Position numbers and translations under genes: made by a program. This document shows positions 3,892-64,000 of a stretch of DNA of 64,000 bases, in pieces. This stretch comes from Erythroxylum novogranatense (lineage: Eukaryota; Streptophyta; Magnoliopsida; Malpighiales; Erythroxylaceae), in the NCBI GenBank assembly GCA_029891385.1, contig CM057233.1:32842540-32906539 (forward strand), given 5' to 3'. Below the pieces are notes generated by a model, which made no database searches, was not told the DNA's origin, and was given only the letters and a program-made list of their open reading frames with translations. How positions within the stretch are numbered: position 1 is the stretch's first letter; each line of letters starts with the position of its first letter.

Positions 3892-3903
3892 GCTCTGATA
3901 CCA
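3892..3903 (-). other. Primer binding site of element A (tRNA-iMet type)
   Basis: The minus strand reads TGGTATCAGAGC, complementary to the 3' end of initiator tRNA-Met. It lies four bases inside the 5' LTR end at 3908. This fixes the element's orientation and the inner LTR boundary. Confidence 0.87.
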
Positions 3904-3907
3904 TAAT

Positions 3908-11355: not shown

Positions 11356-11746
11356 TGTAGCACTCCACTCCCAATAATTTTTTTAAACACGAAAACCACA
11401 TTTATCACAACAAAACACATTTAGGCCATTTACCGGCGATTTTGCCGGTCCGGGAATTTTCTCCGGAAAATTCCAGAAAAATTTCCAAAAATCCCATAAA
11501 ATGTAAAACACTCAATGGCGCACTCCAAATAATTTTTCAAATACTATTTTCCCATAAATTTCACAAAAGATCTCAATTGAAACCTAAGCCGGAAAATGTC
11601 ATGAATGCATGTTTACCATGTGCAAATGCCACAAACCATCAATCATAGAGGCGATAAGTTGTATGATCATGCCGAGTTATAATTTAATACTCCTAACCCG
11701 TCCCAATTTACTAAAATACCCTTCCCATCGGTGATGGGATGTTACA
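11356..11746 (-). repeat. Short 3' LTR of element X (391 bp)
   Basis: On the minus strand it starts TGTAACATCCCATCACCGAT, like S1 and E, and follows those LTRs for roughly 300 bp (CGGCATGATCAT, GCATTCATGACATTTTCCGG). It then passes to an LTR 3' end, GGGAGTGGAGTGCTACA. Compared with the ~4.5-kb S1 it lacks nearly the whole LTR body, so it is either a large internal deletion or a short LTR subtype. Confidence 0.75.
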
Positions 11747-12855: not shown

Positions 12856-14095
12856 TATGTGTGTTTAATATGACGCATTGATGCCAAGTGGAGATAATGG
12901 AGGGTTTATATGTGTTTGATTTTGATTGATTTCGGACCATAGGTGTCTGAAATATTTGGAATAAGATAACGAAGTGCTACTTGTGTGTAACTGTTTGTGA
13001 ATGTTACATTGGAGATCTCGAACCAGAGGTCCGAGGAAATGGAAAATTGATATTGAAGTGTTAATTGTCTGTTTTGACACATTGGATGGGATTGTCAATG
13101 TGATATAGTAGGATGAAATAAATTGGAAATGTAGATAATTAAAATACCGGACCGAACGTCCGAAGAACTGGCAAAATGCGTTGACATGTAAATGGAAATT
13201 GGAATAGGTACATTGCATGCATAAACATAAAAGTATGATCAGATAAAAGGCGATTTATGTAACCGAGCAGCCACCATATCGGGGCATATCACGCCTAACG
13301 ATATGAGAGCTTTCACCAACGCACAGACCTCAGTCCACGTATTTGAGCCTCGGGCTCAATGTATCGTGGCTTCAAGCCCATGTTTTCAGAGCCACCGGCT
13401 CAACGCAATGTGCCCGCTATCGGGAAGCCAAAGCATGCAGCCACAACAACGAAATGAAAATGGAACAGTGTCACATGTGCATTGCATATATATATATATG
13501 ACTGTAAATGACTGAAATATGTGAATGTTGAAATTGCATGTGTATATGAAATTGGAATTGAAATGTGATAATATGTGGTATTACTGTAAATGCTACTGTG
13601 TGCTAATATGATTGGTAAATGCATGAGTTGGGTGAACCATCGATGATGGTTTCTCACTGAGTTCGCAAACTCACCCAACATTGCAATTATTTTTCAGGAA
13701 TTGAAGAGTACCCCGTTAGTGAACCGGGAGTATGATTACTACAAGAGAGTCGGTGTTCGATGTCGGGATCAGTTCACGTCTGCATTTGTGTCATTTTGAC
13801 TTATGTGTAAATTTATATTCCGCAAAAATAGTAATGAATTATTTGAGGGCCCTAATTGATAAATATTGTTTGAAAAGTGATATTTGATAAAGAGTAAGAC
13901 TGAAATGGGGTTTCGTATCACGGGCCCGAATCGTTTATTTTAATTCCGTGCACTTGACTGTTTCAAAAACAAAAAAAAATATCATAATGAGTTTTTGCAC
14001 TGCATTGACTGCTCTAGCGTACCACCCTCGCGGTTTGCAGGCTCGGATATCGCCGTCGATGTCGGGTTCGGGTCTCGTGGGAGTGGGATGCTACA
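12856..14095 (+). repeat. LTR 3' part, copy 1, in element X
   Basis: Closely similar to 14669-15896. It contains the U5-side boxes shared by the gypsy LTRs here: a GAGCC/GGCTC hairpin array (13270-13430), the palindrome ACCATCGATGATGGT (13635-13650), a splice-acceptor-like TTATTTTTCAG (AG at 13696-13697), and the end GGGAGTGGGATGCTACA at 14095. It begins abruptly at about 12856 without the upstream LTR portion. Confidence 0.8.
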
Positions 14096-14123
14096 TTTGG
14101 CCGAGGCGACACACTTCCAAATA
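14096..14123 (+). other. Short filler between LTR copies in element X
   Basis: The ~27 bases after copy 1 (TTTGGCCGAGGC...) are neither LTR end nor LTR start. They resemble 12165-12200 in the same orientation (ACATTTTGGCCGAGGCCATA). They look like templated filler at a joining point; a decayed primer binding site after the LTR end is a weaker alternative. Confidence 0.5.
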
Positions 14124-15896
14124 TTGCATGTATAATTTTGACATCTTATGCATCAATTGCATGAAGTTTTGCTTTGACTAGATGGGTATGTAAATTGGTT
14201 ATTTAATTGATGGTTGAATGATATATTAGTTGATTGAGTGATTAAATTTAATGCTTATGAAGGTAGGAAAGGTGTTAAAATGAAAGGAAGTAAATAGAGC
14301 TGGAAAAAAATGGATTTGTACCTATTGCACTGTTTTGATCATAACTAATGGTGTGGTTATGCAAATGAGACAAGGTTTGTGCCTAATGAAACTTTGGGAT
14401 GTTCGCTTCAAATTTGTGTGAAATAGGTGATGTTAAATTGTATTGTTAGAAGGGTGAATCTTTGCATGGAAAGTTACTGTTTGTAGGGTCTGTGAACAGT
14501 ACCCGCATATATGACCTGATTACTTTGTTGATTTTTCTAAATTAATTGAGATGGAATTTGGGAAAATGGTTTTCATGGAAGTTGTAGAATACTGAGTTAG
14601 CTTTCCATTTCCACTGATGATGTTAGCTCGGAAGTACAGGTGAGTAACCTAGTTGGTTCCTCAACCTTTATGTGTTTAAGATTTTGCAATTTTGCCATGT
14701 GGAGATAATGGAGGGTTTATATGTGTTTGATTTTGATTGATTTCGGACCATAGGTGTCTGAAATATTTGGAATGAGATAACGAAGTGCTACTTGTGTGTA
14801 ACTGTTTGTGAATGTTACATTGGAGATCTCGGACCAGAGGTCCGAGGAAATGGAAAATTGATATTGAAGTGTTAATTGTCTATTTCGACACATTGGATGG
14901 GATTGTCAATGTGATATAGTAGGATGAAATAAATTGGAAATGTAGATAATTAAAATACCGGACCGAACGTCCGAAGAACTGGCAAAATAGCGTTGACATG
15001 TAAATGGAAATTGGAATAGGTACATTGCATGCATAAACATAAAAGTATGATCAGATAAAAGGCAGTTGTGACCGGAGCAGCCACCATATCAGGGCATATC
15101 ACGCCCAACGTATATGAGAGCTTTCACCAACGCACAGACCTCGGGTCCATGTATTCGAGCCTCGGGCTCAATGTATCGTGGCTTCAAGCCCAATGTTTTC
15201 GAGTCACCGCTCAACGCAATGTGCCCGTTCTATGGGGACAGCCAAAGCACAGTCACAACAACGAAATGAAAATGGAACAGTGTCACATGCGCATTGCATA
15301 TATATATATGACTGTAAATGACTGAAATATGTGAATGTTGAAATTGCATGTGTATATGAAATTGGAACTGAAATGTGATAATATGTGGTATTACTGTAAA
15401 TGCTACTGTGTGCTAATATGATTGGTAAATGCATGAGTTGGGTGAACCATCGATGATGGTTTCTCACTGAGTTCGCAAACTCACCCAACATTGCAATTAT
15501 TTTTCAGGAATTGAAGAGTACCCCGTTAGTGAACCGGGAGTATGATTACTACAAGAGAGTCGGTGTTCGATGTCGGGATCAGTTCACGTCAGATTTGTGT
15601 CATTTTGACTTATGTAAATTTATATTCGCAAAAATAGTCTTGAATTGTTTGAGGGCTCTAATTGATAAATATTGTTTGAAAATTGATATTTGATAAAGAG
15701 TAAGACTGAAATGGGGTTTCGTATCACGGGCCCGAATCGTTTATTTTAATTCCGCACTCGATCGCTTCAAAACAAAAAAATATCATAATGAGTTTTTGCA
15801 CTGCATTGACTGCTCTAGCATACCACCCTCGCGGTTCGCAGGCTCGGATATCGCCGTCGATGTCGGGTTCGGGTCTCGTGGGAGTGGGATGCTACA
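14124..15896 (+). repeat. LTR middle and 3' part, copy 2, in element X
   Basis: It starts in the middle of an LTR body (TTTTGACATCTTATGC, compare S1 at about 16885). It then carries the end of the micro-exon-like block (CGGAAGTACAGGTGAGTAAC, 14629-14648) and the duplicated 3' portion (14669-15896) with hairpins, an acceptor-like TTTTTCAG (AG 15506-15507) and the end GGGATGCTACA. The ~2-kb LTR body between these parts in S1 is missing. Confidence 0.76.
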
Positions 15897-15998
15897 TTAA
15901 TATCCTTGGAAAAGGTCACGCTAACAAAAGACCTTTGCACGCCAATGTCAATCAAAACTTTAGCATCTCTACCGAGACCACACATAACACTTTATAAC
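15897..15998 (-). pseudogene. Element H pol: N-terminal part of protease
   Basis: The minus strand reads VMCGLGRDAKVLIDIGVQRS then FVSVTFSKDIN, a retropepsin active-site region. The catalytic aspartate is present, but the usual D-S/T-G-A is changed to D-I-G-V. Reading continues at 11355 beyond element X. Only 102 bases remain between X and S1, and the ATAAC duplication of S1 forms the right edge. The changed active site indicates an inactive protease. Confidence 0.85.
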
Positions 15999-16496
15999 TG
16001 TAACATCCCATCACCGATGGGAAGGGTAAAATGGTAATTTGAAACGGGTTAGGAATGTTTAAACTTATCTCGGCATGATCATGCATAATATGGCCTCTAT
16101 ATATATATGAATGGCAATTTTTGCCTATGCACATGATTGTAGATGCATTCATGACATTTCCCGGCATATGTATCTATCAAAGTGTTTATGGTGAAAAATA
16201 TGTTATTTGTGCTTGAAAATTTGAATTGGAGTGATTTATGTGTGTTTTCCATTTTTGGGGACTTTTAGGGATTTTTCTGGAATTTTTGGGGAAACTTTCC
16301 AGACCAGAAAAAATTGTCAAGTGACGGACTGATTTGGGTTTCCGGTACTGGAAATGACTGTCCAATGGCACTGAAAAATTAGATACATGATTTTAGAATT
16401 TATTACTTTGAGCCATTGGAATTTGGAGACAAAATTGGACTAGAAATTGAATTGTTATTGGAAATGAATTAATGAGGGCTTAAAAATAAGACAAGT

Positions 16497-16553
16497 GGCA
16501 AGTGACACATGTCACTTGCCTACTTAGTCTTATGCTCAAGTGTTGTATAAATA
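16497..16553 (+). promoter_or_regulatory. S1 promoter region: inverted repeat and TATA box
   Basis: A perfect inverted repeat (arms GGCAAGTGACA and TGTCACTTGCC, 2-base loop, 16497-16520) lies 25 bp before TATAAATA (16546-16553). The identical inverted repeat stands before the TATA-like box of the E 3' LTR. This is the expected site of LTR transcription start. Confidence 0.6.
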
Positions 16554-17453
16554 TCCTGCCTTTTTCAAGCTTCCACGACACTTGTCTTTCAAAGGCTTTT
16601 GGAGTTTGGTTTTAGGGATTCTTTCTTCTCTTCTTCGTGGCTTCTTCCCCTTGCTTCTTTGTTGGTTCTTCTTCCACCCTACAAAGAATTTTTTTGTTTA
16701 TTAGCTTGCTCTTCTTCTCTTCCCACATAAATCCACACTTAATCCTTGGGATGATGATGATTATTGTGTGGGTGAGTGATGGTCGTTTATGTGGAGTGAA
16801 GTAGAGGGTTTGGTGTTAGTTGAAGAATTGAAGAAGGTTGAAGTTTAAATAGGTAAGAGTATGTTTTATGTTAGTTAAATGCATAATTGTGACATCTTGT
16901 GCATTAATTGCATGAAGTTGTGCTTTGACTATATGGGTATGTTGCTTCTTTGATTGATTCATGATTGGTAAATGATGAATTAGAAGTTAATGGATGAGAT
17001 ATGATGTAGTATTAAGTTGTTTTGGGTGGTTAGGAAGGTTGTTACATGAGTGTTTATTAATGGGAGAGGGTTGAGAGTAGTTGCTTCAAATTTGTGGACT
17101 TGTGTTCAAGGATAGGTTGTGACTAGTTTATGGTGCATATATGGAGTAAATTGAATGTTATTTGGGTTAGACATGGTATGGAAGATGTAGGATGTGAGTT
17201 AGGTTATAAATCTGGAAAATTGAACTTGTGTATGTTTCAGGTGTTTGATCATAACTTTTGTTATGGTTATGCTATTGAGATGAGCTTTGGCTTAAATTAA
17301 ACTTGAGAAGTTTGGCTAGAATTCTTATGAAGGAAGTTCTATCCAATTGTGGCTTGAAAGGTTTGGAATTTTTCTTTGAAAGTGAGACATATGTGCAGGG
17401 TGAATGTTGGTGAGGCTAACATTGACGATTTTGTGACTAGAAACTTGGGAAAT

Positions 17454-18540
17454 TTTTCTAGGCTAAAGTAGATAGATTTTGTGAAATTGATCTTCATGAA
17501 AGTTGAAGATTTTCTTGTTATCTTTCTATCACCACCAAGTATGACATTTTTTTATTTCTAGGTTGAAAGTTATGGCTTGTTAACTTTCAGATGGTAATTT
17601 ATGTCTAAATGTGTTTTGGTGTGTGTACTATCTCTAAGTATGGATTTTGGTGATTTCTGTGTTCTGACGTTAATTTTGGACTGTTATGGTTGAAATTATC
17701 TCAAGTGATCTTATGGAAAGTTGTAGAGGAATTTTTAGCTTTGTAATGAGGTATTATATGTGAATTTTGGATGAAGGGATTGTAAGTTATGAATTTGTAA
17801 AGTTTGGATACGGCTTAGGTTCTATGCTGATTTAATACTCTATAACAGGGCAGCCACAATAATGGGAAATTTGAACTAGTTAGAGTTCGAATTTTCTTTT
17901 AAGTCCTTCATGAGAATTGTAGCATGTGTTCTACTATTTTCAGTGATATCAAGCATGGAATTTTTCGATAATGGGATAGGAAGTTATGAATATTGGTAGA
18001 TTGTGTTACTGTTGAGAATGACTTATTTAGGCAGAAACTTTAAGTGAGAATTTGATTGGTTTAGAGGTTGAATTTGCTTCCAAGATGTTTATGAAAGTTG
18101 TAGAATATGCTTTTCTCTTTTGATTGATATAAAACTTGGAATTTTTAGCAATGGGGATGGGAAGATATGAGTTTTGAAAAACTGTTGTACTATTTTGAAT
18201 GGTATTGTGAAGACAGTAGTTTTGATTGCATTTTTGACACCCTTAGAGGTGAAATTGGTTTGTGAGCTCTTCATGAAACTTGTAGGATTTTCTGTTCTCT
18301 TTCCAATGAGTCCTCATTTGTGATTTTTGGACAATGGAGTAGAGAATTATGATGTTTAGAGTTTCTATCATTGTGTAGGATGATGTTTATCTGACAGATA
18401 CTTTTATGGGGGTTTTTGACTCCTTTAGAGGTATATCTGGCTCTTAATCTCTTCATTGAATTTGTAGATTTTTCTTTTAGCTTTCCATTGATACCAAGTT
18501 TATTCAATTTGGAGTTCTGAGTAAGAAGTTATGAATTGGA
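17454..18540 (+). repeat. Degenerate 150-185-bp modules in S1
   Basis: A loosely conserved unit is repeated about six times (near 17480, 17705, 17905, 18085, 18265 and 18450). Each has CTTCATGAAA.TTGTAG, a TTTC/TTTCCA box, a GATATNAAG-like box, an AATTTTTGG-like box and a GAAGTTATGA tail. Copies differ strongly, so it is an old internal repeat and not a satellite. Confidence 0.65.
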
Positions 18541-18594
18541 GAAGTTGGGTTGTCGGAAGAAAAGAGACCAGAGTTTTCCAGGTCAACCACTGTA

Positions 18595-18665
18595 GACGAC
18601 TTAGTCGACTAATAGGTTTTCGACTAGTCGACTAATGCATGTAATTTTTACATGCATTAGTAGTC
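18595..18665 (+). repeat. S1 palindrome cassette (TAGTCGACTA type)
   Basis: Two copies of the perfect palindrome TAGTCGACTA (18602-18611, 18625-18634) are followed by a hairpin with arms AATGCATGTA and TACATGCATT (18634-18643, 18649-18658). It sits just before the conserved box TTTTCCATCCGACCTCCGAT (about 18709-18728). Confidence 0.75.
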
Positions 18666-19239
18666 ATGTTTTCTTGACCCGACCTCTCTCTACTCTTTTT
18701 CTTATAACTTTTCCATCCGACCTCCGATTGATCTGATTTTTGAAGCGTTGGATTCATAAGACATTCCTCTACCCCTCCATGAAAATTTATGGATTTTGAG
18801 ATTAAATTGAAAAAGATTGATTATATCAAAGTGAGAGGATTGGTTGAAAAAGTCTGAACATACTTCAGTATTTTGGTGATATCTCGATCTGTAGAGATCC
18901 AAATGAGGTGATTCTTATTCCTAATTAAACTAGAGACATGGGGATACAAGTTATCTGAAGGAATCAAATTTTCAATTTAGTCCCTAAGATGTTCAATTTT
19001 TGGAGTGAAGTTAGGTATAGTGTACAGTCTCGGTTTTAGCAATAATTGGACCTATAGAGGTCCGAATTGAGTGATTTTGGTGTCAATGAGTTTCTAAAAT
19101 TTAGAGGAAAATATTGTGACGGGAATTTTTGGTATAATGCTGGGAATGTCACGAACATGCATACATGTGCATTATTAAATCTCTGATTGCACATTTGGTA
19201 ATGTTTGAATATTTTGGCTGTTTTAGTGGTGCATTTGGA

Positions 19240-19300
19240 ACGTCAACCCACAGATGTTGCCGAGACTTCCAGGCATTAGCTTCGGAAGCAGATGGTGAGT
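19240..19300 (+). other. Conserved micro-exon-like block in S1
   Basis: CCCACAG (AG 19252-19253) is followed by a short conserved core with GAGACTTCCAGGCATTAGC and by a splice-donor-like GTGAGT (19295-19300). Versions of the block occur at the same relative place in S2, S3, E (twice), S4 and, in part, X. Splicing is inferred, not shown. Confidence 0.5.
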
Positions 19301-20084
19301 GACCTAGACGGTTCCTCAATTATTATTTTCTTCTGCTTCTACTTCTATGGTGAATAATGCTGGGATTGTGTTTTGATTATGAATTCCGGACAGAAGGTCC
19401 GAGGTATTGGGAGATTATGTAACACCCCCTTACTGTAGAACACACACCGAGACGCCCGGAGGTCATTTCGGTACATATCCTACGATAAAGGCGAGCTACG
19501 TTCTATCATTTTATTCACGTCACATGGCATCATATTAAAAGTTTGCTTCTAACGCATCAATAGAAAATTCACAATATTTTGAAACCAACTGTTTTCCTCA
19601 TTTCATTTCTCTAGACAAAAGGTTACAGCGTCTTTCAATCTTTAATACAATGTTCATCCACAAAATCTATTACCAAAAGCACTACAATGATGAGGAAATT
19701 ATGAAAAATCTAATTATGTCATCCAAAAAGCCCAATTGACCGACCTTTGCGCCATGACTTCACTTTAAACACACTCTACACGGTAGTGGAGCCACTCAGA
19801 TGCTAAAGTCGTCTATCGGTCCTGAAAAGACAACATTGCAATTTTGATGAGTTTTGCGAACTCAGCGAGAAACCATCATTGATGGTTTACCCAATTCATG
19901 CAGCACTCAAGCAAATTGCATAATATTGTACACTAGCGCATTCAGAAGTACCACATGAGGATATTTAAGCAAATCACAAATGAATAAGGCATTTTGGCCT
20001 GTCACCCATTCACAATATTCAATCAATTATGTATGCATTGCATATGACATGTTCCCATTTTAGTTCGGTGTTGTGACCGAGCGC

Positions 20085-20195
20085 CTGTACTGTCCCAATT
20101 AGGGCACATTAAGCGGTGAGCCTGTGGCTCTGAATCAGTGTGGGCTCGATGCCCAATACGGTGAGCTTTTAGCTCTCGGTAGCTGCTTCGGTCAC
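20085..20195 (-). repeat. Mini-hairpin array in S2
   Basis: On the minus strand this has the GACCG.AGCAGC.ACCGAGAG start followed by short inverted repeats of the GAGCC/GGCTC kind (for example GAGCCACAGGCTC). It corresponds to the arrays in X, S1, E and S3. Confidence 0.6.
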
Positions 20196-21384
20196 AACTA
20201 TCTTTATATGTGCATGCATTCATGTATGAAATGAATATGTCCCAATTAAACAGTACACGTATCGCAATCAGTAAACATGTCACATTAAAACAAGTAAATG
20301 CACAAAGTGCACAGATTCACAACCAGATCACACTTCTATGTCATATCTCCAATACATCGGACCTTCTGTCCGGAATTCACAACATACACAAACACAAAAC
20401 CCGTCATTATCCACCACAGTAGACATATAATAATTGAGAAACCTATCTAGGTTACTCACCAACTGCTCCCAAAGTTAGTGCCTGGAAGGTCCGGCAACGT
20501 CTGTGAGTTGACATTCCAATTACTCCTCTATAACGAATAACATACATATAATCACAATTTGTACAAGTATCGATGTTTAATAATGCACACGAATGAAAAT
20601 AAAATGTACAATACATGCATGACAATCCCGGGTAGCATTCTATCACTTTCATTGCAAGGTCATTCTCAAAACAAAACTCATCTTTTGCTAAATCACACTT
20701 TCGGGTTTATAGTGAATCACACTAAATTAGAGAGTGAAGAAGATATCTTTTTATCATACTCCCTTCTATAAATGTGTTCCTCTAAGTCTTAAGATTCCAT
20801 TTGTACCAAAATCACTCAATTTGGGTTAGTAGATTGGGAGATAGACCTCAAACATTGATAGACTGTTTAAAGCATACTAAAACCGATTCCATCCAGCATT
20901 TGAACATCTTAGAGATTGAATCACAATTGAACTTCTTCATATGATTTGTAGTCCTATAACTTAAATTTACTACAAATAAAGAATCATCTCATTAGGAATC
21001 CTATAGCTCTACATATAAGCAAAACATTGAACTCTGTTCAGTAAAACTACTCCCGTTGACAATGTTCCAATAGACTCTCACACTTTCATTTGATCAATCT
21101 ATTTCAATTTAACTCAAATTAATACAATTTTTTGTGGATATATAGGAAAATGTGTTAGGAATCCATTTCCACAAGAATCAAGTCATTTTGAGCTCTATAT
21201 AAGGAGTTATAGTCAAAAGAAGCAACCATGCTCATAACTGTCCTCCAATCGAACATACTTTGGCGCAGATGACATAACTTTCGTTCTATATGTCTGAATG
21301 ACTTCGTTCTTAGATGGTTGGAAAGAAGACATCTAGTGATACAACTTTCATTAAAACCAAAAATTATAATTCTGTCGTTAAGGG

Positions 21385-21505
21385 GGTCACACGGGCCGTG
21401 TAAAGCCACACGGTCAGACCGTGTAACTTTTTGGTGAAATGTGTCCCTTGAGCCTGGATTTACACGGGCCGTGTAATGGTACACGGGCAGACCGTGTAAG
21501 CTACG
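21385..21505 (-). repeat. S2 palindrome cassette (ACACGGGCCGTGT type)
   Basis: ACACGGGCCGTGT (21389-21401) and TTACACGGGCCGTGTAA (21460-21476) are accompanied by two half-matching copies ending CAGACCGTGTAA. The cassette occupies the LTR position that TAGTCGACTA palindromes occupy in S1. Confidence 0.72.
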
Positions 21506-23274
21506 GATTAACTAAATTTTTCACTTCTAAAACTCCTCAAAAAGTTCCTAAACCCATTCTAACCTTTCATACACTCTTAAACATCCCCAAAACACCTATT
21601 CTTAAGCAAATAACACTCCAAAATCATTAAACACTAGTTACACTTCCTTCACTCCTTTCATCCATCAATCACAACTTCACCTTATCCTTCCTAATTTTCC
21701 AGTCTTTTTCCATAACCTACCTTAGTTCAACATAGTATTACTCCAAGCTTAAGATCATTCATTCCAAGTGATGAAAACCATTCATACACAAGCCATATCC
21801 CCTAGTTAATCAAACACTCTACATGAAACACAATCCTATACCTTTATTCATAACAATTTCAACACTCACATTTGAGATTCTTCAAGACAAAATTCACAAT
21901 TAACATCTTCATAAGAATTGTAGTCAATTTCCTCTATTTTCATTTAAACCAAGCCTCAACTCATTTGGACAACTATAGAAGAAATTATGACTATGCAATT
22001 GAAGCACACTCAAAGATCAAGCTATTAAAATTTTCCAGATTTTTCTTCTTCAATCATTTAAGCAACATTCAACTCATCTATTCCATCTCATGCCTAGATC
22101 ATCTTTTCCATGACAATTCCTCATCAATTCCTACCTAATTCAATTCAAGAAATCACTCACAAACAAAGCAAAAGCTACAATTTATCATAATCCCAAAACA
22201 GGGCATACACATATATATCCATTCATAAACAATTTCTACACTCATCCAATCATTCCTTTGAAAATCATTCAATCACTTAACCTCTATATACCCTTACATG
22301 CATTATCACTCATCCCATATATCCACAAACAAGATATGAACATGAATTTGTATCATCCAAGACACATACATAAATCTTGCCATATCAAAACATCACAACT
22401 CAAGTTAATCATCATGTTAGTCTAAAATGAACCATACCAAGACATTGAAAGCAAACACTTACTTGATTTAACAACAAACTCTTCAAATTCTCACAAAACC
22501 TTAGTTCCCAAGCATCCCATGTTCTTCATCTTGAAAAAGGTAAAACTAGGTTTTCTTATGGCAACTTAAAGAATCAACAAGATGGTAGTAGAAAGTGAAA
22601 GATGGAGCAAGGTTTCAAGTAGGTGAATCACCAACTCATGAAGGAGATGAAGAGAGGGAGATGGAGCCACGAAGAAAAGGGAAGAAATGACTTAAAATAC
22701 AACTCCAAAGGCTTTAAAGAGTAAATTTTGTGGGAGAGCCAAAAGAGGCTTCAATTTAGATGGTCATTTAACCTAATACATGGCTCTAAACATGCCATGT
22801 GTCAAACCAAGATTTAACCTTTAATTTCTTCTTAAACTAATCAATTTCAAGCCCAATTTCCCATAAATAACACTTGTCAATTATTCCTATAACCATATGG
22901 CCAAAATTCAATTCCATAGGCACTAAATTCTACTACCGATTATCAGTTGGTCTGCCCCTCGGCATTTTTCCTAGTCCGGGATTTACCCCCGAAAAATTTC
23001 AGAAAAATTGCTAAAATTCTCCAAAATTATAAAATCAATAATGTCACTCTCCAAATAAATTTTCAAAATCAATAACCCACAATTCTCAACCCATTCACAA
23101 GTAGAACCAAATATACCGGGAATGTCAATGAATGCATGTACAAAAATTTCATGTGCAATCAATACAATGTTCACAATACAAATATGTCACAAAATGCATG
23201 AACAAGCAATTGCATTACTAAGCTCTCACTAAACACCCATATTTCCTATTTTACCCTTCCCGCTGGTACTGGGA

Positions 23275-26200
23275 TGTTAGACCCCGAACTTTTGATGATA
23301 ATTAGAAATATAACAATGAATATTAATGATAAAGAAATTGGTGAGACAATTTATGAATTTAAGAAAATTTGCTGAAATTAAGAAAAATTTATGAGAAAAG
23401 AATTGTTTAGTTTAGAGGACTTTGATATTTGAATGAATTTATATGGATTATGAGAGGAAAGTGGATGAGTTGACTGAAATGAAGCTAAATAGCAAGAATT
23501 AGAAAGAAAAAGTGTGAAAATTTGAAGGATTTAGAAAGTTTGACTTTTTGGAGAGAGAATGTTTGACTTTGATAGTTGACTTTTGTTTGAGGCAAAATTT
23601 GATAAAATGATCTACATGAAACTTGTAGATTATATTAAGAGCTTTTTGTATACATAAAGTTTGCAATTTTTTGATATTGGGAGTAAAAGTTATGATCAGT
23701 CAAAGTTTATGTGTGATAGGGTTGACTTTTGACTTTAAGTATGATTGAAACTTTGACTGAGAAATTTACCTAGTTAGAGATAAATTGCGCCTTGATGTTC
23801 TTCATGAAAATTGAGGGATTTGTTTTGATCTTTTTTTCGATATAAAGTATGAAATTTTTCGATCTCGGAATATTAAGTATGATTTTTACAAGTTTGTATA
23901 GAGGATAGTATCTTTGACCGGAAAATGGACTCCCGTAGGAGTTGAATTGAGTTTTATGTTCTTCTTGGAAGATTTAGAGCTTCTCTCAAGCTTTCTATAG
24001 AGACTAAGTTTGTCAAAATTGGAGTTCGGGATTAAGAGTTATGAATTTCGGAAGTTTTTGATAATAAGTGGAAAAATATATATATATATATATAAAAAAA
24101 TTAAGCATCCCCGTCACTACGGCGACGCATCGCCGTAGCGATGCGAGCTTTCAGCGTCACCCTGGTGATGCAAGCGTTTTCCTTGCCCGAAACGACGTCG
24201 TTTTGCTCCTTGCTTCCTCCTCCAATCCGACCTTTGTTCACTATTTTGCTTATATCTTTTCCTTCCGACATCCGATTGAGTTGATTCTTTTTGCGTTGGA
24301 TTCCTAAGACAATGAATTTCATTTTATAAGAAATTTGTGAACTTTTGAGATTAAATTAATGGTGATTAATTTAATCAAAGTGAGTCGGGAAATTTTCCGA
24401 GCATGATTCAGTGTTTTGTGAAATTCGGGATCTATAGAGATCCGATTGAAGCGATTCTTGAGGCGAAATAAAGATAAGACAAGGGGCTACAAATCATATG
24501 AAGACATGAAATGTCAATTTTGCCCTTAGGACTTTTAATTTTTGAATTTAAGTTCGGATTTGGGTGTAATTTTTGGATTGGGAACACCTGTGAGTAATTT
24601 GAGTATAACTTTTGATCTGGGAATCGAAATGAGACGATTCTTGTTTTGAATTAAACTAGAGACATAAGGATACAATTGTTATGAAGACAGCGAGTTTCAA
24701 ATCTGGGATTAAGAATGTGAATTTTGGGACTGAAATAATCGTACATAAGAAATGTGTTAGAATATGGATTTTCCCGCACTGTTTCGCACATAACTTTTGA
24801 TGTAGTGCTCGGAATTGAGCGCGGTCAGTGGCGTTGGATTCGTATGAGTGAGAGGAACATTTATCGAGAAGGAAGTTTTGACAAATTCCTTCAAATCGAT
24901 AGTGCGAATCAAACCGCAAGTAAGCGTAACTTTAAGTTTTAAATGAAGGACAATTTGGTCATTTGACCATCAATTAATGAAACACATGGTAGAGATGTCG
25001 TTTTGGCTTATTAAAAGCCACGGAAGTGGCTGGAGAAGTCTGGAAAATTTTAGAAGAAAGAAGAAGAAATAAGAAGAGAGTAAGATGAAAGAATAAGAGA
25101 AGGAGGGAGAAGTGAAGAGCCGACCATGGAGAAGAAAGAAAAGCTTAAGGTTTGTGATATTTTTTTGACTTTAACCTTGCTTTTGCATAGATTTTAAGGA
25201 AGAAGGATGAAAAAGCTTGAAAGTTTCCTTGGGTTTGTAAAAAATTCAAAATAGGAAGAGAAAGAGAGAGAGAAAATATTTAAGTTTGGAATTTTCTTGA
25301 GTTTTGGTTTGAAAATATGGAAAATGATATGTGTTTATGATTTATGAAGAAAATTTTGATGTATGAGCCTTAGGTTATGTTTAAATATTGGATGAAAATT
25401 AATGAAGGTTTAGGCTTAATTTTATGATTAAGGATTTTGTGGAATTTTGGTGTAGAATTATAGGAAATATGATGAATTGATGATATATGAAATCAATTTC
25501 AAGAATTTGTATTTTATGGTATTGAATTGGGATAAATTGGTTTAGGCCAATTTTAAGATTTGGGGATTTTGAAATTGAGGATTTAAATAGTTTGGAATTA
25601 ATGTGAATTGATGAATTGTGAGATTAATTTGAAGAAATTATGTTTTATGAGATTTAATTTGGGTGTATTGGTTTAGGCCAATTTTGAAAATTGGGGATTT
25701 TCAAAATTGGAGATTGAAATAGCTTGGAGTTATGATAGTTATGTTTTTCCTATGGTTGAGTTTGAGAATTATGCAAATTATGATGATGAATTTGGATGTT
25801 ATTGGCTTAGGAATTTTTAAATTGAAGAAAGAAGAAGGAATTTGGAGAATTGACTATTCGACAAGCTTCTAGCGTCATTTCGAAGTGGGTAGCATATTTA
25901 TATTTTGATTTATAAGTTAAATATTACTTTTCAAAATTTGAGAAAATGAAAGAAAAGATTTTCGTACTTTGTTTATTTCGAATGATTTTTGGAAAATTAT
26001 TACAAGCGTAAATTCATTGCTTTAAATGTTTTGATAAACTGATAGAAATTCTGAAAAATGCATTTGTTGTGTATGCATTGAATGATTTGATTTCTGAAAT
26101 TAGAATTGAATGATGAATTGATCAAATTGTATGCTTTATGTGAATGTGTGGAAAATTAAGAAATTGAAAAGTGCCTTGAGCAATCCGACTCTTCGTTTTC

Positions 26201-37564: not shown

Positions 37565-37581
37565 CGGGATGTTACAGATTA

Positions 37582-38703
37582 TGACATAGAAGTGCTGTTT
37601 GTCTGAGAATTTGGGACCTCCGTGTTTAAATGTGATTAAATGTGATTGTGATTTTAATGTGAATAATTGTGAATTATTTTTTTTAATGTGATAATTTGGG
37701 ATTGATGGTAATGTTGATATTGCTTCATTACGACATATGCATTCCATGCATGAATGCATGATCAGTTAATGACAGTTGTGACCGGAGCAGCCACCGAGAG
37801 CTAAAATCTCAATGCATTTGGGCTTCGAGCCTATAGTAATTTAGAGCCTCAGGCTCAACGATTAATGCGTCCATATTGGGACAGTAGTGATTCAGATCCT
37901 CAGGCTCAACGATTAATGAGCCCTGATTGGGACAGTCCAGGCACTCAGTCATAACACCGAAATAAATTGGAAAAGTGTCACATGCGCATGTCATATGCAT
38001 TTGCTTGAATCACTTTGATTGAGTGAAAGGCAAAATGCCTTATACTCCTGTGGTACCAATCATGTGGTACTTCTGAAGGTGAATTATGAAACAACTGTGT
38101 TATGCTTGAGTTTTACATGAATTCATTTGGTTATGTATGTCTAATCGAATGAAATGTATAAATTGTCTGTGCTTAAGTGAAATTGTGAAATGTGATCAAA
38201 TATGCAACAATGTGAATATATTTTATGTGAAATGATGTGTTGCATAAATTGAGTGAACCATCGATGATGGTTACCTCATTGAGTTCACAAAACTCACCCA
38301 AAATTTGCAATTATTTTTCAGGACACACAAGAATACCCCGTTAGGCAACGGGCATATAGCATCTGCTTGTGAGTGAGAGAAGTGGTCGGGGATCAGTTCG
38401 CATCTGCATTAGTGTCTGATAGAATTGTTTTTTTTTCTGAATTTTTGTATTAATGATTAGATCAAATTGTAAAGTCAACTAACTAAAATAAATTGTATTT
38501 ATGAAAAGGGCCCTCGTGGTCATTGTATTTACCGGTGATTTATGTATGGTAATGATTTCCTGCATAGTGTATGCTTGTGTTTTTCAAAAAAAAAATTTAT
38601 GCTGAGTTTTGATTGAGTGATGTAGCACGCTACCCTCGCAGGGCACGGATTCAGATATCACCATCGATGTCGAGTTCGGGTCATGCGGGAGTGGGGTGTT
38701 ACA
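37582..38703 (+). repeat. S1 LTR 3' part (continuation after S2/T)
   Basis: It continues S1 exactly after the GATTA duplication. It contains a GAGCC/GGCTC hairpin array (about 37790-37950), the palindrome CATCGATGATGG (near 38262-38273), the acceptor-like TTATTTTTCAG (AG 38320-38321) and the LTR end GTGGGGTGTTACA. It matches 49665-50767 of E. Confidence 0.86.
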
Positions 38704-46487: not shown

Positions 46488-46488
46488 C

Positions 46489-49177: not shown

Positions 49178-50767
49178 TTAACGTGGATTGGTTAGGTCAA
49201 AGAGAGGGGACCGGATAATTATTTTTTTAGTTCGTCTTTTATTTATTATTGGACCTATAAAGGTCCAAATTAAGTATTTTTAGTGTCTATGGCTTTCTAA
49301 TTTTTTTAAAAAAAAATTATGACGGAAAATTGTGAAATAGTGCCGGGAATGTCACGAACATGTATTGTACACCTTTTAATTGCTACATGTGCATTATTAA
49401 ATATTTCTGAGTGTACCTTTGGTGATGGTGAATATTTTAGACTATTTAGAGGCGCTTTTGGAACGTCACCCCACAGACGTTGCCGAGACTTCCAAGCTTT
49501 TGCTTCGAGATCTATTGGTGAGTGACCTAGATGGTTTCTCAATTATTATTTGTTTATTATTTTGCGCTTATAATTCTGTGGAGAAGAATGGTGGGATTTT
49601 GCGTTGTTTATGACTGGATTCTGGGTCGAAGGTGTCCGATGTATTGGGAGATTATGACATAGAAGTGTTATTGTCTGAGAATGTGAGACCTTCGTGTTTT
49701 CAATGTGATAAATTGTGAATGTGATTTTAATGTGAATAATTGTGAACTAATTGTTTGAATGCGATAATTTGGGTTTGATTGTAATGTGATATTGCTCAAT
49801 TGCGACATATGCATTCCATGCATGAATGCATGATCAGTTAATGACAGTTGTGACCGGAGCAGCCATCGAGGGCTACAAGCTCAACGTTTATATTTGAGCC
49901 TCGAACCCCACAGTGATTCAGAGCCTCAGGCTCAACGATTAATGCGCCCATAATGGGATAGCTCAGAGCCTCAGGCTCAACGATTAATGCGCCCATATTG
50001 GGACAATTCAGGCGCTCAGTCACAACACTGAAATAAATTGGAAAATTGTCACATGCGCATGTCATATGCATTTGATTTTTAATCTCTTTGATTGAGTGAA
50101 AGGCTAACAGCCTTATGTTTCTGTGGTACCAATCATTCCGAATGTGAATTATGAAACAATTGGCTTATGCTTGAGTGTTTTATGAATTCAATTGGTTATG
50201 GATGTCAAATTGAATGAAATGTATCAAATTGTTTATGTTCAAGTGAAATTGTGAAATGTGATCAAATCTGCAACAATGTGAATATATGTTATGTGAAACA
50301 ATTTGTTGCATGAATTGAGTGAACCATCAATGATGGTTCCTCACTGAGTTCGCAAAACTCACCCAAAATTTGTAATTATTTTTCAGGACCCAAAAGAATA
50401 CCCCGTTAGGCAACAGGCGTATATAGCAACATCTGCAAGTGAGAAAAGAGGTCGGGATCGGCCAAGGCGTCGCATTAGAGTTTAATAAAAATTGTACTTT
50501 CTGAATTTTTGTACAAATGAATATGTCATGTTGTAAAGTCAACAAACTGAATGAAATTGTATTTACAAAAGGGCCCCCGTGGTCATTGAACTCACCGATG
50601 ATTATTTATGTAAATTGTTTTCCGCATAATATATAAAGTATGTGTATGTTTCAAAAAAAAATTATACTGAGTTTTGACTAAGTGATGTAGCACGCCACTC
50701 TCACAGGGCACGGACTCGGATGTCACCATCGATGTCAGGTGGGGTCATGCGGGAGTGGGGTGTTACA
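49178..50767 (+). repeat. 5' LTR of element E, lacking about the first 2.6 kb
   Basis: From TTAACGTGG at 49178 it is nearly the same as 60431-60910 of the 3' LTR and, further on, as 37582-38703 of S1. It has the micro-exon-like block (49460-49525), hairpin array (49860-50025), acceptor-like TTATTTTTCAG (AG 50385-50386) and the end GGGAGTGGGGTGTTACA. Upstream of 49178 the sequence changes to H gag. Confidence 0.85.
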
Positions 50768-51275: not shown

Positions 51276-52186
51276 TGTAAGATCCCGTCACCAATGGGGA
51301 GGATAAAATAGTAAATTTGGATTGGGTTGTGATTTTGTACACAAGATGGTGTATGCACTCGTGACAATTCCCCGTTTTTGGTGTTTTTGTGAAAAATGTG
51401 AAATTGTGTAGTGGATAGATAGAATTGGAGTGATTTATGTGAATTCTATGGAATATTGTAAAATGGGTACCGATGAGATTTCTGGTACTGAAAATGACTG
51501 TTCATTTGACACTCTAATTAGAGACATGATTTAGGAATTTTGTTTTAGCTTGAGCTATCGAAATTTGGAAAGTTTTATGAGAGTCAAAAAATAGATTGAT
51601 TGTATTGGAAATTGATAGGCATGAAAACGAGTGACCCGAAAAGATGTTGAATTTCAATTCTGTCCCTAAGAGTCGGAATTTTTGAATTAGAATAGTAAAT
51701 TTATAAGAATTGGTATGAGGGCAATTTGGGCAAGATACTTAAGAGAAAAAAGGTTAAGGTTAAATGAAGAGGGTAACATGGACAGTTCATAATTAGAAAT
51801 GGTATAAAAAGAAAATTAGGTTTTGAAAATAGGGAAAGAAATGAAGATGCCGTGAAGAAGAAAAGGAGGAGAAGAGGAAAGGAATTTTCGATGGAGTTAT
51901 AAAGAGTTTAAAGAATTTGTGAGCTAAATCAAGTAAGTTTAACCCTTCTTCTTCTTAAAGACTTGATTGATTCCCGTTTTAAGTGTTAAAAGGTATAGAT
52001 TTGGGTGTTTTTATGTCGGGTTTTAGGGTTATCGAATATGGATGGTTTTGGTTGATTTGGTAAACAATATTAGGTTAAAGTGGGTTGTAAATGGATTGTT
52101 GATGAGATTTAAGTGTTTAGAATGATTTATGTGTTGAATAGATTGGAAGAGTTGGTTTGAAAATGGTGAAAAACTAGATTCGGGGA

Positions 52187-52330
52187 AGGAGACGGCTCGC
52201 ACGTCGCGACGTGCTCATGCGCACATCGCGGTGCGCGAATTTGTGCACGTCGCGACGAGCGCAGGGCTGCACGTCTCGACGTGAATGAGGGAGCACGCCG
52301 CGGCGAGCTTCTCTTCGCGGCGGCGAGGAC
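52187..52330 (+). repeat. S3 palindrome cassette (GTCGCGAC type)
   Basis: The 16-bp perfect palindrome GCACGTCGCGACGTGC (52199-52214) is followed by variants (ACATCGCGGTGCGC, CACGTCGCGACGAGC, CACGTCTCGACGTG, CACGCCGCGGCGAG). Strongly GC-rich against an AT-rich LTR. An open frame across it on the minus strand, with RRDV repeats, is a by-product of the repeat. Confidence 0.76.
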
Positions 52331-52741
52331 CCCTGTTCCTGATTGAATATGTTTTGGTTTTTAAGACATAACTTTTTATATCGATATTCAAATGAGATAA
52401 TTTCTGATTTGTTATGAGATAGAGACAAAGGTCTTCATGCCTTATGAAGAGGAGAAATGTTAAATCAACCTGTAAAGGCTTGAAATCTGGAATAGTGGTT
52501 TAGTGAAAGTTATGGTTATATGTTGGAGAATGGCGAGGACCCCTGTTCCTGATTGAATATGTTTTGGTTTTTAAGACATAACTTTTTATATCGATATTCA
52601 AATGAGATAATTTCTGATTTGTTATGAGATAGAGACAAAGGTCTTCATGCCTTATGAAGAGGAGAAATGTTAAATCAACCTGTAAAGGCTTGAAATCTGG
52701 AATAGTGGTTTAGTGAAAGTTATGGTTATATGTTGGAGAAT
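52322..52741 (+). repeat. Perfect 210-bp tandem duplication in S3
   Basis: 52322-52531 and 52532-52741 agree at every base that I compared. The unit starts GGCGAGGACCCCTGTTCC, at the edge of the GC cassette. Identity means a very recent duplication or an assembly error. Confidence 0.9.
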
Positions 52742-53289
52742 AACTTTGAGATTTCTGCAACGAATTGACTGATTTGGATATCAACTGAATTATGATTTTT
52801 TGAAGGAAGATTTTTTAGGGCAAAATATTGGGTTAATGTCGGGAATGTCACTAAAGTGTGTGATACGTTTATTTTTGTAAACTACTACATGAGTTTTATT
52901 CTGAAAGGGCAATGTGTAAACTTAGGGTGTTTGAATTGTGATAGGGGCATTTGGAAGGTCAACCTCAAATAGTTCTGAGACTTCCAGGCATTAACGCAGA
53001 AGCCAGGTGAGTGACCTAGATGGTTCCCAAAGTATTAAATGTTATAATTCAGTGATTTAAATTCTCTGAAGTAAAATGACGAGACAGTATTGAATATGAA
53101 CTCCGGATCGAAGGTCCGGAGTATTGAAGTGATAGTAAACAAAAATGTTATGAGAATGTGATAGTGTAATTGTGTTTGTGATGTGAAAATCTGGAATAGA
53201 TTAGAAATGATTGTGATATATGAATACGATAATAAAGTGATTGAATTGTGACACATGTCGTTCATTTATGAATGCAAAATTAGTTAATG

Positions 53290-53880
53290 AAAGTTGCGAC
53301 CAAAGCAGCCACTGATCAGAGCTTTCAGCTCAACGTTATAACTAGGCTTCGAGCCATATAGTGATGCAGAGCTACAAGCTTGACTACTGGACAAGAGCCT
53401 TGTGCTCGAAAAGGGAATAGTGCATACCCAGAGGGCTTTCCTATTCCTAAGATGCGTGGAAAGTAGTGCATACCCAGAGGGCTCTTCTACCCCTAAGACG
53501 CGTTTAATGCTTAATGAGCCCTAAATGGGACAGTTTAGAGCTACAAGCTCAACGATTGATGAGTTAGTGCAAACCCAGAGGGCTCTCCTACCTCTAAGAT
53601 GCGTGGAAAATAGTGCATACCCAGTGGGCTCTCCTACCCCTCAGACGCGCTCAATGATTAATGAGCCCTTAACGGGACAGTTTCAGAGCGAAAAGCTCAA
53701 TGATTGATGAGTTAGTGCATACCCAGAGGGCTCTCCTACCTCTAAGACACATGGGAAGTAGTGCATACCCAGTGGGCTCTCCTACCCCTCAGACGCGCTC
53801 AATGATTAATGAGCCCTTGATGGGACAGTTCCAGAGCCTATGGCTCAACGATTAATGTGCCCTTATAAGGACAGTATAGA
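53290..53880 (+). repeat. Two-level minisatellite with mini-hairpins in S3
   Basis: A unit of about 46 bp (TAGTGCATACCCAGAGGGCT...AAGACGCG) occurs six times (near 53418, 53464, 53566, 53611, 53714 and 53759). It is combined with a segment containing AATGAGCCC and AGAGCTACAAGCTCAACG to form a higher unit of 148 bp (compare 53561 with 53709). In the other LTRs this region is only a short hairpin array, so S3 has expanded it. Confidence 0.8.
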
Positions 53881-54807
53881 TGCTTGGTCACAAAACTGAT
53901 ATGAATTGATAATGGAATTACAGACTGCATTTATTCTGATATGTTTGATTGAATGATAGGTGAAATGCCCTTCACTGGTGTGAAAATAGTTATGGGGTAC
54001 TCCTAATTATAGAATGTATGACTGATTGTGATATGCTTAGTGTTGTATGGAATATTAGAGCTGTTAACCAGAGTTGCCATCGATTAGAGCTTATAGCTCA
54101 ACGTGTGAAAATGAACTTTGAGTTCATAACTGATTCAGAGACTTAGGCTCAATGTTTAATGAACCCGGTATCCAGTATTAGATAAGGGTCAGCTATTATT
54201 GAGCCCATCGATGGGACAGTTTAGGCACTAGGTCACAGCCATATGATAATTAAATAGTAAGCGAGTGAAATACTTTGTATCGAAAAATGGGATGTATGAA
54301 TATAGATTTCTGTAAATATGTAAATGGGGAATTCTTGAGAAAATGTATTACGAGATAGAGATAGATCTATGGGAATTGAAAAAAATGAGATGAAATAGAA
54401 AGAATGAAAACATAAGTTATTATTTGATTCTGTACTTGAGTGAGCGGACCATCGATGATGGTCACTCATTGAGTTTGCAAAAACTGACCCTCAATATGTA
54501 ATTGTTTTGCAGGACTCAGAAGAATACCCCGTTAGGCAACGGGTGTATTGTGATCGCGGAGCGATAGAAGGGGACGGGATCAATTGCGTCTGCATTAGTG
54601 TCTGAACAGTTTTGTATGAGATTGTATGCCTAAATTTTTGTATAAATGTTTCAGATTTATCTTAAATAACTGTGTATGATTCAAAGAAACAAATTTTTTT
54701 TATACTTTGATTTGACTGAGTGATGTATCACACCACCCTCGTAGGGCACGGACTCGGATGTCACCATCGATGTCGGGCCCGGGTCTTACGGGAGTTAGGG
54801 TGTTACA

Positions 54808-57794: not shown

Positions 57795-60700
57795 TGTAAC
57801 ATCCCATCACCGATGGGAAGGGTAAAATAGTAATTTGGGACGGGTTATGAGTGTGTAAACGTATCTCGGCGTGGTCATGCCTAATATGGCCTCCATATAT
57901 GCATAAATTGTAATTTTTGTATATGCACATGATTGTACATGCATTTATGACATTTCCCGGCATATGTATTATTGTGAGAAACATATGATTTAGTGCTTGA
58001 AAATCAAATTGGAGTGGATTTTTGTGTGTTTTTCATTTTTGTGGAATTTTAGAAATTTTTTTAAAATTTTTTCAGGATACCTTTCCGGACCGAAAAAAAA
58101 ATTGACAAGTGATAGACTGATGTGGTTTCCGGTACCGAAAATGACTGTCCAATGGCACTGGACAATTAGATACATGATTTTAGGATTTATTGCTTTGAGA
58201 TATTAGAATTTGGAGAGAAATTGGACTAGAAATTGTATTGTTATTGAAAATGAATTAAATGAGGGCTTAAAACATGACAAGTGGCAAGTGACACATGTCA
58301 CTTGCCTACTTAGTCTTATTTCTCACTTGTTAAATAAATATCTTACCTTTTGGTAAGCTTCCACGACTTTCTAAGTTAAGAGAGTGAAGGATGCTTTTAA
58401 AGTGATTTTTCCTTCTCATCATTCGATAGTCTACTTCTTCCTCCTCCTTTGATTTTTTTTCTTCCTTCTTTTAAGTTGCTACTCTTCTCTTCTACCTTAA
58501 GTGCTTCCTTACCATGTGATCAAGCTTAAGCCCTCTACCCCCCCTTAAAAGGATGATTGCCATGGGTGTAGGGGTGTGGGTGGAGGATAGAGATTTGGTG
58601 AAAAGTGGAAGGAATGAAGAATTAAAGGCTTGTTAGGTGAGAATTTTGATTTATGTTCTTTAATTGGTAGTTAAAATCATTTACTGTGCTTATTGGTGCA
58701 TTAATTTCATGAAGTTTATGTATATATTGTATGGGCATAAGTCATGGTTATGTGAGGATGAATGATGTTGGATATATATAGTATGTGAATTAAATGTTTT
58801 GGAGTGGTTCATATGATGTTAGATGATTGGTAATTAAAGTAAGAACCTTTTGTATGTGTGCTGCCATTTTATGATTAAGTGTTCAAGTGAAGATCTAGAT
58901 GAAATTGTGGCTGAATTAGTGACTAAATGGAATGATTATTGATGTAGGAATGATGTTGGAATGAAAGGAGTAGAGTTAGATATGAGAATCTGGAAAATTC
59001 ACTTTGTGTAGGTTTTCGATTTTTACTCATAACTTTTGATATGGTTGTGCTATTGAGATGATCTTTAGCTTGAATTAAACTTAAGAAGTATGGATAGAAT
59101 TCTTATGAATAAAGTTCTGCCCAAATGTGTCTGTAAGGGTTTTGAATTTGGCTTTGAAAGTTAGAAATATGTGCAGGGTGAACAACGGTGAATATAACAT
59201 TGACTGATTTGTGACCAGAACTTTGGGAACTTTTCTAGGCTAAAGTAGACTGATTTTGTGAAATGGGTCCTCATGAAAGTTGAATATTTACTTTTTATAT
59301 TTCTAACGCCACTAAGTATGAATTTTTTTGATTTGTAGGCTGAAAGTTATCAACTGTTAATGTTCAGGTGGTAATTCATATCAAAATGTGTTTTGTGTGC
59401 AAATGGCTCTAAGTGTATAGGTCTTGTGATTTCTGTGTTCTGGAGCTAATTATGAATAGTTATGATTGGAATTAGCTTAAGTGATCTTCTAGAAAGTTGT
59501 AGAGGATTGTTGTAGCTTTCTAATGAGGTTTAATATGTTAGTTTTGGATGTAAGGATTGTAAGTTGTGAATTTGTAAAGTTTGGTTATGGGTTAGGTTTT
59601 ATGCTATTTTAACAAGCTTAACAGGGCAGCCACATTAATGGGTGAATTTGAACTGGTTAGTGATGAAATTTGTTTCTTAGTCCTTCATGAGAAGTGTATC
59701 TTGTTTTCTTATCTTTTCAGTGATATAGAGCATGTAATTTTTTGACAATGGGTTAGAAAGTTATGAATTTTGGAAGAGTGTGTTACTGTTGAGGATGACT
59801 TATATAGGCAGAAGCTTTGCTGGGGAATTTGATTTGGTTAGAGACAGAATTGGCTTCCAAGTTATTCATGAAAGTTGTAGCATTTGCTTTTATATTTTGA
59901 TTAATATAAAATTTGGAATTTTTGGCTAAGGGGATGAAAAGTTATGATTTTTAGAAAGATGTTGTACTGTTGTGGTAAATGTGTGACTAGGCATTGTCTT
60001 TGAGTGCATTTTTGACACCCTTAGAGGTGAAATTGGATTTTTAGCTCTTTATGAAACTTGTAGGATTTTTCAAGATCTTTCCAACAAGACCTTATTTGTG
60101 ATTTTTGGACATGTGGGTAAAGAGTTGTGTAGTGTGGAAGAAGGGAGAGTTAATATGTGGTTTTGAAAAAGATGGAAAATGAACATTTTGGAAAGAAAAA
60201 AAAGAAATGAAATTGATTTCTGGAACCTCGCATCTCGAGCCCGCGACAAATTGCGAGGGCAAAACCCATCCGATTTTTTTTTAATTATTTATTATTCTTT
60301 TGTTAATTATCAATGCCTTTTAAATTCTTTTGTCAATTACTTTTTCATCCGACGTCCGATTGACCTAATTCTCGAGGCCTCGGATTCGTAGATTATTTAA
60401 TTTTATTTATTTGTAAAATTGGGGATTTTTATAGATGAAATTAACGTGAATTGGTTAGGTCAAAAAGAGGGGATCAGATAATTATTTTTCTGGTCCGTCT
60501 TTTATTTATTATTGGACCTATAAAGGTCCAAATTGAGTCTATGGCTTTCTAATTTTTAGAGGAAATTTTTGTGACGGGAAATTGTGAAATAGTGCCGGGA
60601 ATGTCACGAACATGCATTGTACACATTTTAATTGCTACATGTGCATTATTAAATATTTCTGAGTGTACCTTTGGTGATGGTGAATATTTTGGACTGTTTA

Positions 60701-60910
60701 GAGGTGCTTTTGGAACGTCACCCCACAGACGTTGCCGAGACTTCCAAGCTTTTGCTCCGGGAGCTATTGGTGAGTAACCTAGATGCTTTCTCAATTATTA
60801 TTTATTTATTATTTTGCGCTTATAATTCTGTGGAGAAGAACGTTGGGATTGTGCGTTGTTTATGACTGGATTCCGGGCCGAAGGTGTCCGATGTATTGGG
60901 AGATTATGAC
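57795..60910 (+). repeat. 3' LTR of element E, interrupted by S4
   Basis: It starts TGTAACATCCCATCACCGAT and follows S1 for most of its length: inverted repeat with arms GGCAAGTGACA/TGTCACTTGCC (58283-58306), TATA-like TAAATAAATA (58331-58340), several of the ~170-bp modules (59260-60120) and the micro-exon-like block (60713-60780). Where S1 has TCGACT palindromes it has CCTCGCA...TGCGAGG (60226-60258), then the box TCATCCGACGTCCGATTG. It is broken after GATTATGAC at 60910. Confidence 0.85.
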
Positions 60911-63900: not shown

Positions 63901-64000
63901 TTGTATTTGTTTATGACTGGGTTCCGGACAGGTGGTCCGATGAATTGGGAAAATTGTCATAGAAGTGTGTCAGGTTGTGATTCTGTGAGCTAAATTGCTC
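60911..64000 (+). mobile_element. S4: LTR (solo or 5' LTR), cut by the window end
   Basis: It starts TGTAACATCCCACCTCTAAC; the five bases before it are ATGAC. It carries the shared modules, the TCGACT palindrome cassette (63283-63392), the box TCTTTTCCGTCCGACATCG and the micro-exon-like block (63776-63840, donor GTGAGT). The hairpin array and LTR end lie outside the window, so solo LTR and full element cannot be told apart. Confidence 0.84.
63283..63392 (+). repeat. S4 palindrome cassette (AGTCGACT type)
   Basis: Five AGTCGACT-like palindromes, two of them CTAGTCGACTAGGA and others with one change (AGTCAACT, AGCCGACT), are spaced about 20 bases apart. The same cassette type as S1, at the same place relative to the TCCGAC box. 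Confidence 0.75.

Follow-up and report, generated by a model that had tools for sequence, protein, structure and literature searches.

Large retrotransposon derivatives (LARDs) of barley combine long terminal repeats (LTRs) of several kb with internal regions of about 3.5 kb that have no long frames and are conserved between copies; we know of no intron-like module inside their LTRs. In HIV-2 and SIV, an intron of the R region has its donor in the LTR and its acceptor before the primer-binding site (PBS). A splice donor in the LTR is also described for HTLV-1 (PMC11599126). Among plant elements, BARE1 (PMC3735527), Ogre (PMC6317226, PMC12786077) and EVADE (PMC12786077) are spliced facultatively and keep an unspliced genome, and their introns lie in or between coding regions. 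One of these papers, a review, presents plant LTR retrotransposons as generally intron-less, with Ogre and EVADE as exceptions (PMC12786077). Sunflower elements produce spliced isoforms, Tekay elements being absent from the expressed set of that study (PMC7730604). The ta-TRIM of Echinococcus is a non-coding LTR element with cis-spliced transcripts whose solo LTRs drive spliced RNAs (PMC4558846). Within the open-licence literature searched with narrow terms, we recognised no paper describing introns within plant LTRs.

The window analysed here, a stretch of 64,000 nucleotides of Erythroxylum novogranatense (C10:32842540-32906539 of an assembly of 1.30 Gb in 267 contigs), is a nest of LTR retrotransposons, and its giant LTRs share traits with several of these systems. 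As in LARDs, multi-kb LTRs enclose internal regions of about 3.5 kb that lack long frames and are conserved between copies; the intron-like module seen here in the LTR is not known to us from LARDs. If splicing is facultative and the genome stays unspliced, as we propose here from the sequence, the elements would share this with BARE1, Ogre and EVADE, whereas the candidate introns of the window lie inside the LTR and not in or between coding regions. A candidate donor in the LTR resembles the case of HTLV-1, and candidate donor and acceptor both precede the PBS as in HIV-2 and SIV: in S4, the candidate donors D1 and D2 and the candidate acceptor A2 all lie before the LTR end and the PBS. These animal viruses differ from the present element, which is apparently non-coding and has two candidate introns of kb size. 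The apparently non-coding nature of the element is shared with ta-TRIM, to which the cis-spliced transcripts and the solo-LTR-driven RNAs belong; the latter is a miniature element of an animal, and no conserved two-intron LTR module is described in the available part of its report (PMC4558846).

The giant LTRs start with TGTAACATCCC, end with GGTGTTACA or a close form, and are 3.5-4.5 kb long (4546 nt in S1, 3532 in S3, 4104 in S4). They have TG..CA ends and target-site duplications; S1, a solo LTR, is flanked by ATAAC, and the insertion that interrupts it (19418-37576) by its own duplication, GATTA. The internals between five LTR pairs measure 3378, 3474, 3567, 3658 and 4930 nt, the four that were compared being 76-86% alike. 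There is no plus-strand frame above 79 aa in the three internals read (L069, L071, L074), which by their frame lengths only are without gag-pol. We found no coding region in the giant-LTR elements; the open pieces in the window match reverse transcriptase (10176-11018, minus strand) and copia-type gag (43905-44594, minus strand). The PBS, TGGTATCAGAGC with at most one change, lies 6 nt past the terminus at 8 of the 27 LTR ends (a ninth, L004, was flagged but sits in another context), and a similar site also adjoins the S4 LTR. The S4 element extends past the window end; over 3056 bp, its two LTRs share 95.7% identity, and 40 scored copies of the S4 family match at 95-100%. We assign the giant LTRs to a superfamily of LTR retrotransposons that is LARD-like and apparently non-autonomous. 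The marks of the Tekay/Del chromovirus clade are a chromodomain integrase and a clade-typical reverse transcriptase, and it is this clade that the 3' end of our elements presumably resembles.

Other repeats accompany these elements. Inside the S1 insertion (23274-37564), a unit of about 5 kb forms a threefold head-to-tail array with 95-97% identity. A direct repeat of 1.85 kb with 95.7% identity (38766-40604 and 46488-48331) surrounds the copia-type gag piece and probably represents the LTRs of a nested copia element. Elsewhere in the genome, two S3-type matches to the conserved block described below (L041 and L059, C6:70257594-70261382) lie 3.55 kb apart, about one LTR length, and are perhaps tandem LTRs.

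In our reading, the LTR would comprise a promoter, exon 1, D1, intron 1 (1.0-2.4 kb), exon 2 (62-68 nt) and D2, followed by intron 2 (0.6-1.5 kb), A2, exon 3, the LTR end and the PBS (Table 1).

Table 1. Coordinates of the features of the giant LTRs in the window. Exons, introns, donors (D) and acceptors (A) are putative throughout.
Feature	Position	Strand	Details
S1 TATA-like motif	16546..16552	+	TATAAAT; start near 16578 inferred from motif
S1 putative exon 1	16578..16852	+	start inferred from TATA motif
S1 putative intron 1	16853..19226	+	2374 nt; D1 = TAG/GTAAGA; 3' end TTTTAG (19226) or CCCACAG (19253)
S1 putative exon 2	19227..19294	+	68 nt; alternative start 19254 (~42 nt) if CCCACAG used
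S1 putative intron 2, first part	19295..19417	+	D2 = ATG/GTGAGT; interrupted by nested insertion 19418-37576
S1 putative intron 2, last part	37577..38321	+	ends at A2 (AATTATTTTTCAG)
S1 putative exon 3	38322..38703	+	runs to LTR end
Twin hairpin	38246..38297	+	~25 nt before A2; yUNAy-like CTCAC in last arm
E 5' LTR, last part	49450..50767	+	exon 2 49450-49517, D2 49518, A2 50386, exon 3 50387-50767
E 3' LTR	57795..60910	+	D1 58637, A1 candidate 60701, exon 2 60702-60769, D2 60770; interrupted by S4 at 60911
S3 LTR	51276..54807	+	TATA 51803, D1 51933 (CAA/GTAAGT), A1 candidate 52944, exon 2 52945-53006 (62 nt), D2 53007, A2 54512, exon 3 54513-54807
S4 5' LTR to window end	60911..64000	+	D1 61764, A1 candidate 63766, exon 2 63767-63832 (66 nt), D2 63833; A2 past window, L075:673
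S2	19418..23281	-	D1 22462 (CAA/GTAAGT), A1 candidate 20528, exon 2 20527-20460, D2 20459, A2 19822, exon 3 to 19418; 5' limit uncertain
X1	13610..14095	+	A2 at 13697 and LTR end
X2	14623..15896	+	last part of exon 2, D2 14640, A2 15507, LTR end 15896

We assessed the sites in two ways. Splice ranks were obtained with a simple, untrained matrix for plant donors and acceptors, and the column test identified the best-scoring GT or AG among the columns kept in the copies aligned for each site. The duplicates L031, L034 and L036 and weak matches were dropped from the 38-copy profile and from the count of 69 places given below, L036 was dropped from the identity windows and kept-column test of the D1 region, and L001, L031, L032, L034, L036 and matches below 95 bits were dropped from one further copy set.

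The most conspicuous part of the module is the block that contains exon 2 and D2. Its core, which the initial annotation had described as conserved, occurs on the plus strand with at most three mismatches at 19262, 49485, 52977, 60737 and 63802, where 0.01 occurrences are expected; a sixth copy lies on the minus strand in S2, and the 3' half of the core is present in X2 at 14623. The GTGAGT said to follow the core is indeed kept, with most of the next 15 bases, in all six window copies. As a donor, D2 ranks first in S3 (of 226), S4 (of 212) and X2 (of 130) and third in S1 (of 242) and in the 5' LTR of E, E5 (of 109); in S2 and in the other LTR of E, the 3' one (E3), it falls below the top seven. 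Of the 48 GT columns that S1, E3 and S4 all keep, it scores best, as it does among the five kept in six copies. GTRAG is found at this position in 32 of 38 rows, most of them S1-like, and in 29 of the 30 S3-like copies. It is mutated in the S4 3' LTR. The composition of exon 2 is exon-like, with a GC content of 0.48-0.54 against 0.32-0.40 in the introns and less T than these in the copies measured (that of the E 5' LTR was computed from a second AG, two bases further on). A coding micro-exon was rejected because the exon 2 lengths of 68, 66 and 62 nt keep no frame. The window has no Rfam match at the gathering score and no tRNA detectable by ARAGORN.

The start of exon 2 has two candidate acceptors, CCCACAG (ending at 19253) and TTTTAG (ending at 19226). 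The former had been taken as common to the copies, which is not reliably so: its AG is absent from 7 of 38 rows, S4 and the window's S3 among them, and 24 of 30 S3-like copies have a CTCAG-like form. The context of TTTTAG is more T-rich, and its AG is read in 6/6 window copies and in 30/30 S3-like copies and lost in 7 of 38 rows. No A1 column, be it CCCACAG or TTTTAG, is kept in all six aligned copies.

Donor sites after the promoter leader are present as proposed, but one to four bases away from the positions first given: the G of the GT lies at 16853 (S1), 58637 (E) and 61764 (S4). Position and score suggest further candidates in S3 (51933, with a TATA-like motif at 51803) and in S2 (minus strand, 22462). 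D1 ranks first of 242 donors in S1, second of 215 in E3, fourth of 212 in S4, second of 277 in S2 and second of 226 in S3. Of the 11 aligned LTR starts, 10 have GTRAG there, as do 27 of 30 S3-like copies, and D1 is the best of the three GT columns kept in all eleven starts. It is out of register in a plain three-LTR alignment and becomes visible only in the eleven-copy one, in which its 8-base windows have an identity of 0.79 (mean 0.46) and rank 10 and 11 of 481, below nine windows at 16899-16907. In the S3-like copies, the D1 bin has the lowest divergence (0.047) of the 36 bins across 51400-52119. A sister lineage of S4 provides a further comparison: 7 of 40 matches to a D1 query end at GTAAGA and 33 continue, and in the one locus measured of three fetched the identity is 0.91 before GTAAGA and 0.39 after it. 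This step between exon 1 and intron 1, seen in one lineage, may be a recombination border. Two observations concern intron 1 itself. The stretch TGCATTAATTGCATGAAG at 16899-16916, about 50 nt past D1, is the best kept of 16560-17040 in the eleven copies, above D1, and the intron of S3 contains a direct duplication of 210 bp with 100% identity (52322-52741).

Near the LTR end, the ATTTTTCAG-like acceptor A2 is found at all six positions where it had been reported (38321, 50386, 54512, 13697, 15507 and, on the minus strand, 19822). Its distance from D2, given earlier as 0.9-1.5 kb, is slightly more variable: the upper end stands at 1506 nt, but the lower end falls to 638 nt, the nested insert of S1 being excluded. 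A2 is the first-ranked acceptor in S3 (of 254), S2 (of 222), X2 (of 84), E5 (of 72) and the last piece of S1 (of 50), and in S4, where it lies past the window end, it comes first among 88 acceptors in L075. It is the best of six AG columns kept in five copies, a count that leaves out S2, misaligned by one base; with S2m included, three AG columns are kept in six copies and A2 is not one of them. Of 49 copies, 48 retain the AG.

The module is real, and of the four sites proposed in the initial annotation D1, D2 and A2 are strongly kept and are the best-scoring kept columns, whereas the acceptor of the block is not kept in all six copies. Between subfamilies, identity peaks at D2 and A2. A comparison of four copies gives 0.84 for the final 40 nt of intron 2, 0.82 for the opening 30 nt of exon 3 and 0.80 for the terminal 82 nt of the LTR; past its first 30 nt, exon 3 drops to 0.51 and then 0.36 between subfamilies. 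With six copies, exon 2 reaches 0.69, the 24 nt that follow D2 reach 0.84, and the 68 nt preceding exon 2 reach 0.52. The profile of 38 copies, most of them S1-like, is flat, with a divergence of 0.055-0.145 in the bins of the block and a mean of 0.124. The idea that the LTR body has drifted around fixed sites is correct in part: within intron 1, S1 and E3 are 76-88% identical over most of 17215-18300, and the block does not stand out among S1-like copies. Intron lengths do vary between copies that share the sites. Some motifs (16899-16916, 19393-19400 and the LTR end) are as well kept as the splice sites.

The best single explanation of these sequences, in our view, is a two-intron leader within the LTR that is spliced in some transcripts, the genomic RNA staying unspliced; we give it a probability slightly above even. 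Against it speak the flat profile of the mostly S1-like copies, the lack of an A1 column common to the six aligned copies and the outcome of the junction probes described below. The conserved pieces could instead be cis elements with hairpins, acting in packaging, dimerisation, reverse transcription or regulation, in which GT and AG are incidental. Such elements would account for the roughly 24 nt past D2 that are as conserved as D2, for the motif at 16899-16916 that is better kept than D1, and for the predicted structures. A hairpin is predicted over exon 2, and the twin hairpin before A2 forms in 97.4% of 833 pair cells across 49 copies (26-46% for slid versions), with one pair being A-U in 26 and G-C in 16 of the copies. 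None of the pairs of the exon 2 hairpin, however, has changed on both sides, and in the twin hairpin there is one such pair against a shuffle mean of 1.4, changes that may stem from few events. As D1, D2 and A2 all fit the splice consensus and each is the top kept site, we regard purely structural or regulatory elements as possible but unlikely.

The splice sites could also be relics or passengers from an autonomous parent with a spliced leader, without present use. The internals read without a long frame fit such an origin, as does the loss of D2 from the 3' LTR of the young S4 element, but subfamilies S1, E, S2, S3, S4 and X all retain the sites with introns of differing length, which makes disused relics improbable. 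Chance and shared ancestry alone, given that GT and AG are frequent and that close copies look conserved anywhere, would explain the flat shallow profile and the likeness of the S3-like copies over more than 1 kb around the query, the latter in part because the matches were chosen by that query. The subfamily comparison peaks at the sites and these rank first among the kept columns, which speaks against this last explanation, and we give it very little credence.

Under the two-intron leader, splicing would most likely act on a part of the transcripts from the 5' LTR and take out some 2.5-3.2 kb of leader. Splicing would also remove most leader AUG codons, from 137 to 17 in S1 as calculated from densities and the assumed start. 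In the standard model of LTR replication, the RNA leader supplies R and U5 for both new LTRs, and a spliced template would therefore give intron-less LTRs. For this reason, a fraction of the transcripts would have to be left unspliced as the genome. The twin hairpin may contribute to this balance: its last arm has the branch-point-like (yUNAy-like) CTCAC in 44 of 49 copies, and the structure might, as a guess, hold back the second splice. The benefit for an element without long frames could be an intron-aided RNA output or, alternatively, a leader common to an autonomous partner that must translate gag; no such partner was found here.

Spliced leaders that had re-entered the genome would appear as copies crossing an exon junction. 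None of the best 40 of 3087 candidates does so for the S1 exon 2-3 probe, none of the best 40 of 4725 for the S4 exons 1-2-3 probe, and none of the best 40 of 3153 for the S4 exon 1-3 probe. This would be expected if there is no splicing, if spliced RNA stays outside replication, or if such copies are too rare or too old to rank. No relatives were matched in plasmids, nor in viral contigs for one exact pattern of the A2 region. The insertions of S2 in S1 and of S4 in E3 start within 5 bp of the same LTR place (19413-19418 and 60906-60911), near which another LTR-like sequence begins in the S4 3' LTR (L076). An insertion hotspot was rejected, as of 69 places of the block (block A) in the fetched loci only that of S1 bore such an LTR start, and we treat the shared place as a coincidence.

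One may extend the two-intron leader to the size of these LTRs. They could be giant as intron-bearing leaders: a two-intron module, gated by a hairpin at the branch site, would divide the transcripts into spliced RNA for export and unspliced genomes, and the introns would offer free room for growth and rearrangement; we put this forward as a tentative and rather doubtful proposal. Introns inside the LTR, if true, would constitute a layout different from that of Ogre and EVADE and would give a reason for LTRs of several kb. The genomic RNA would then have to escape splicing, and many solo LTRs would be promoter-plus-donor cassettes able to splice into neighbouring genes.
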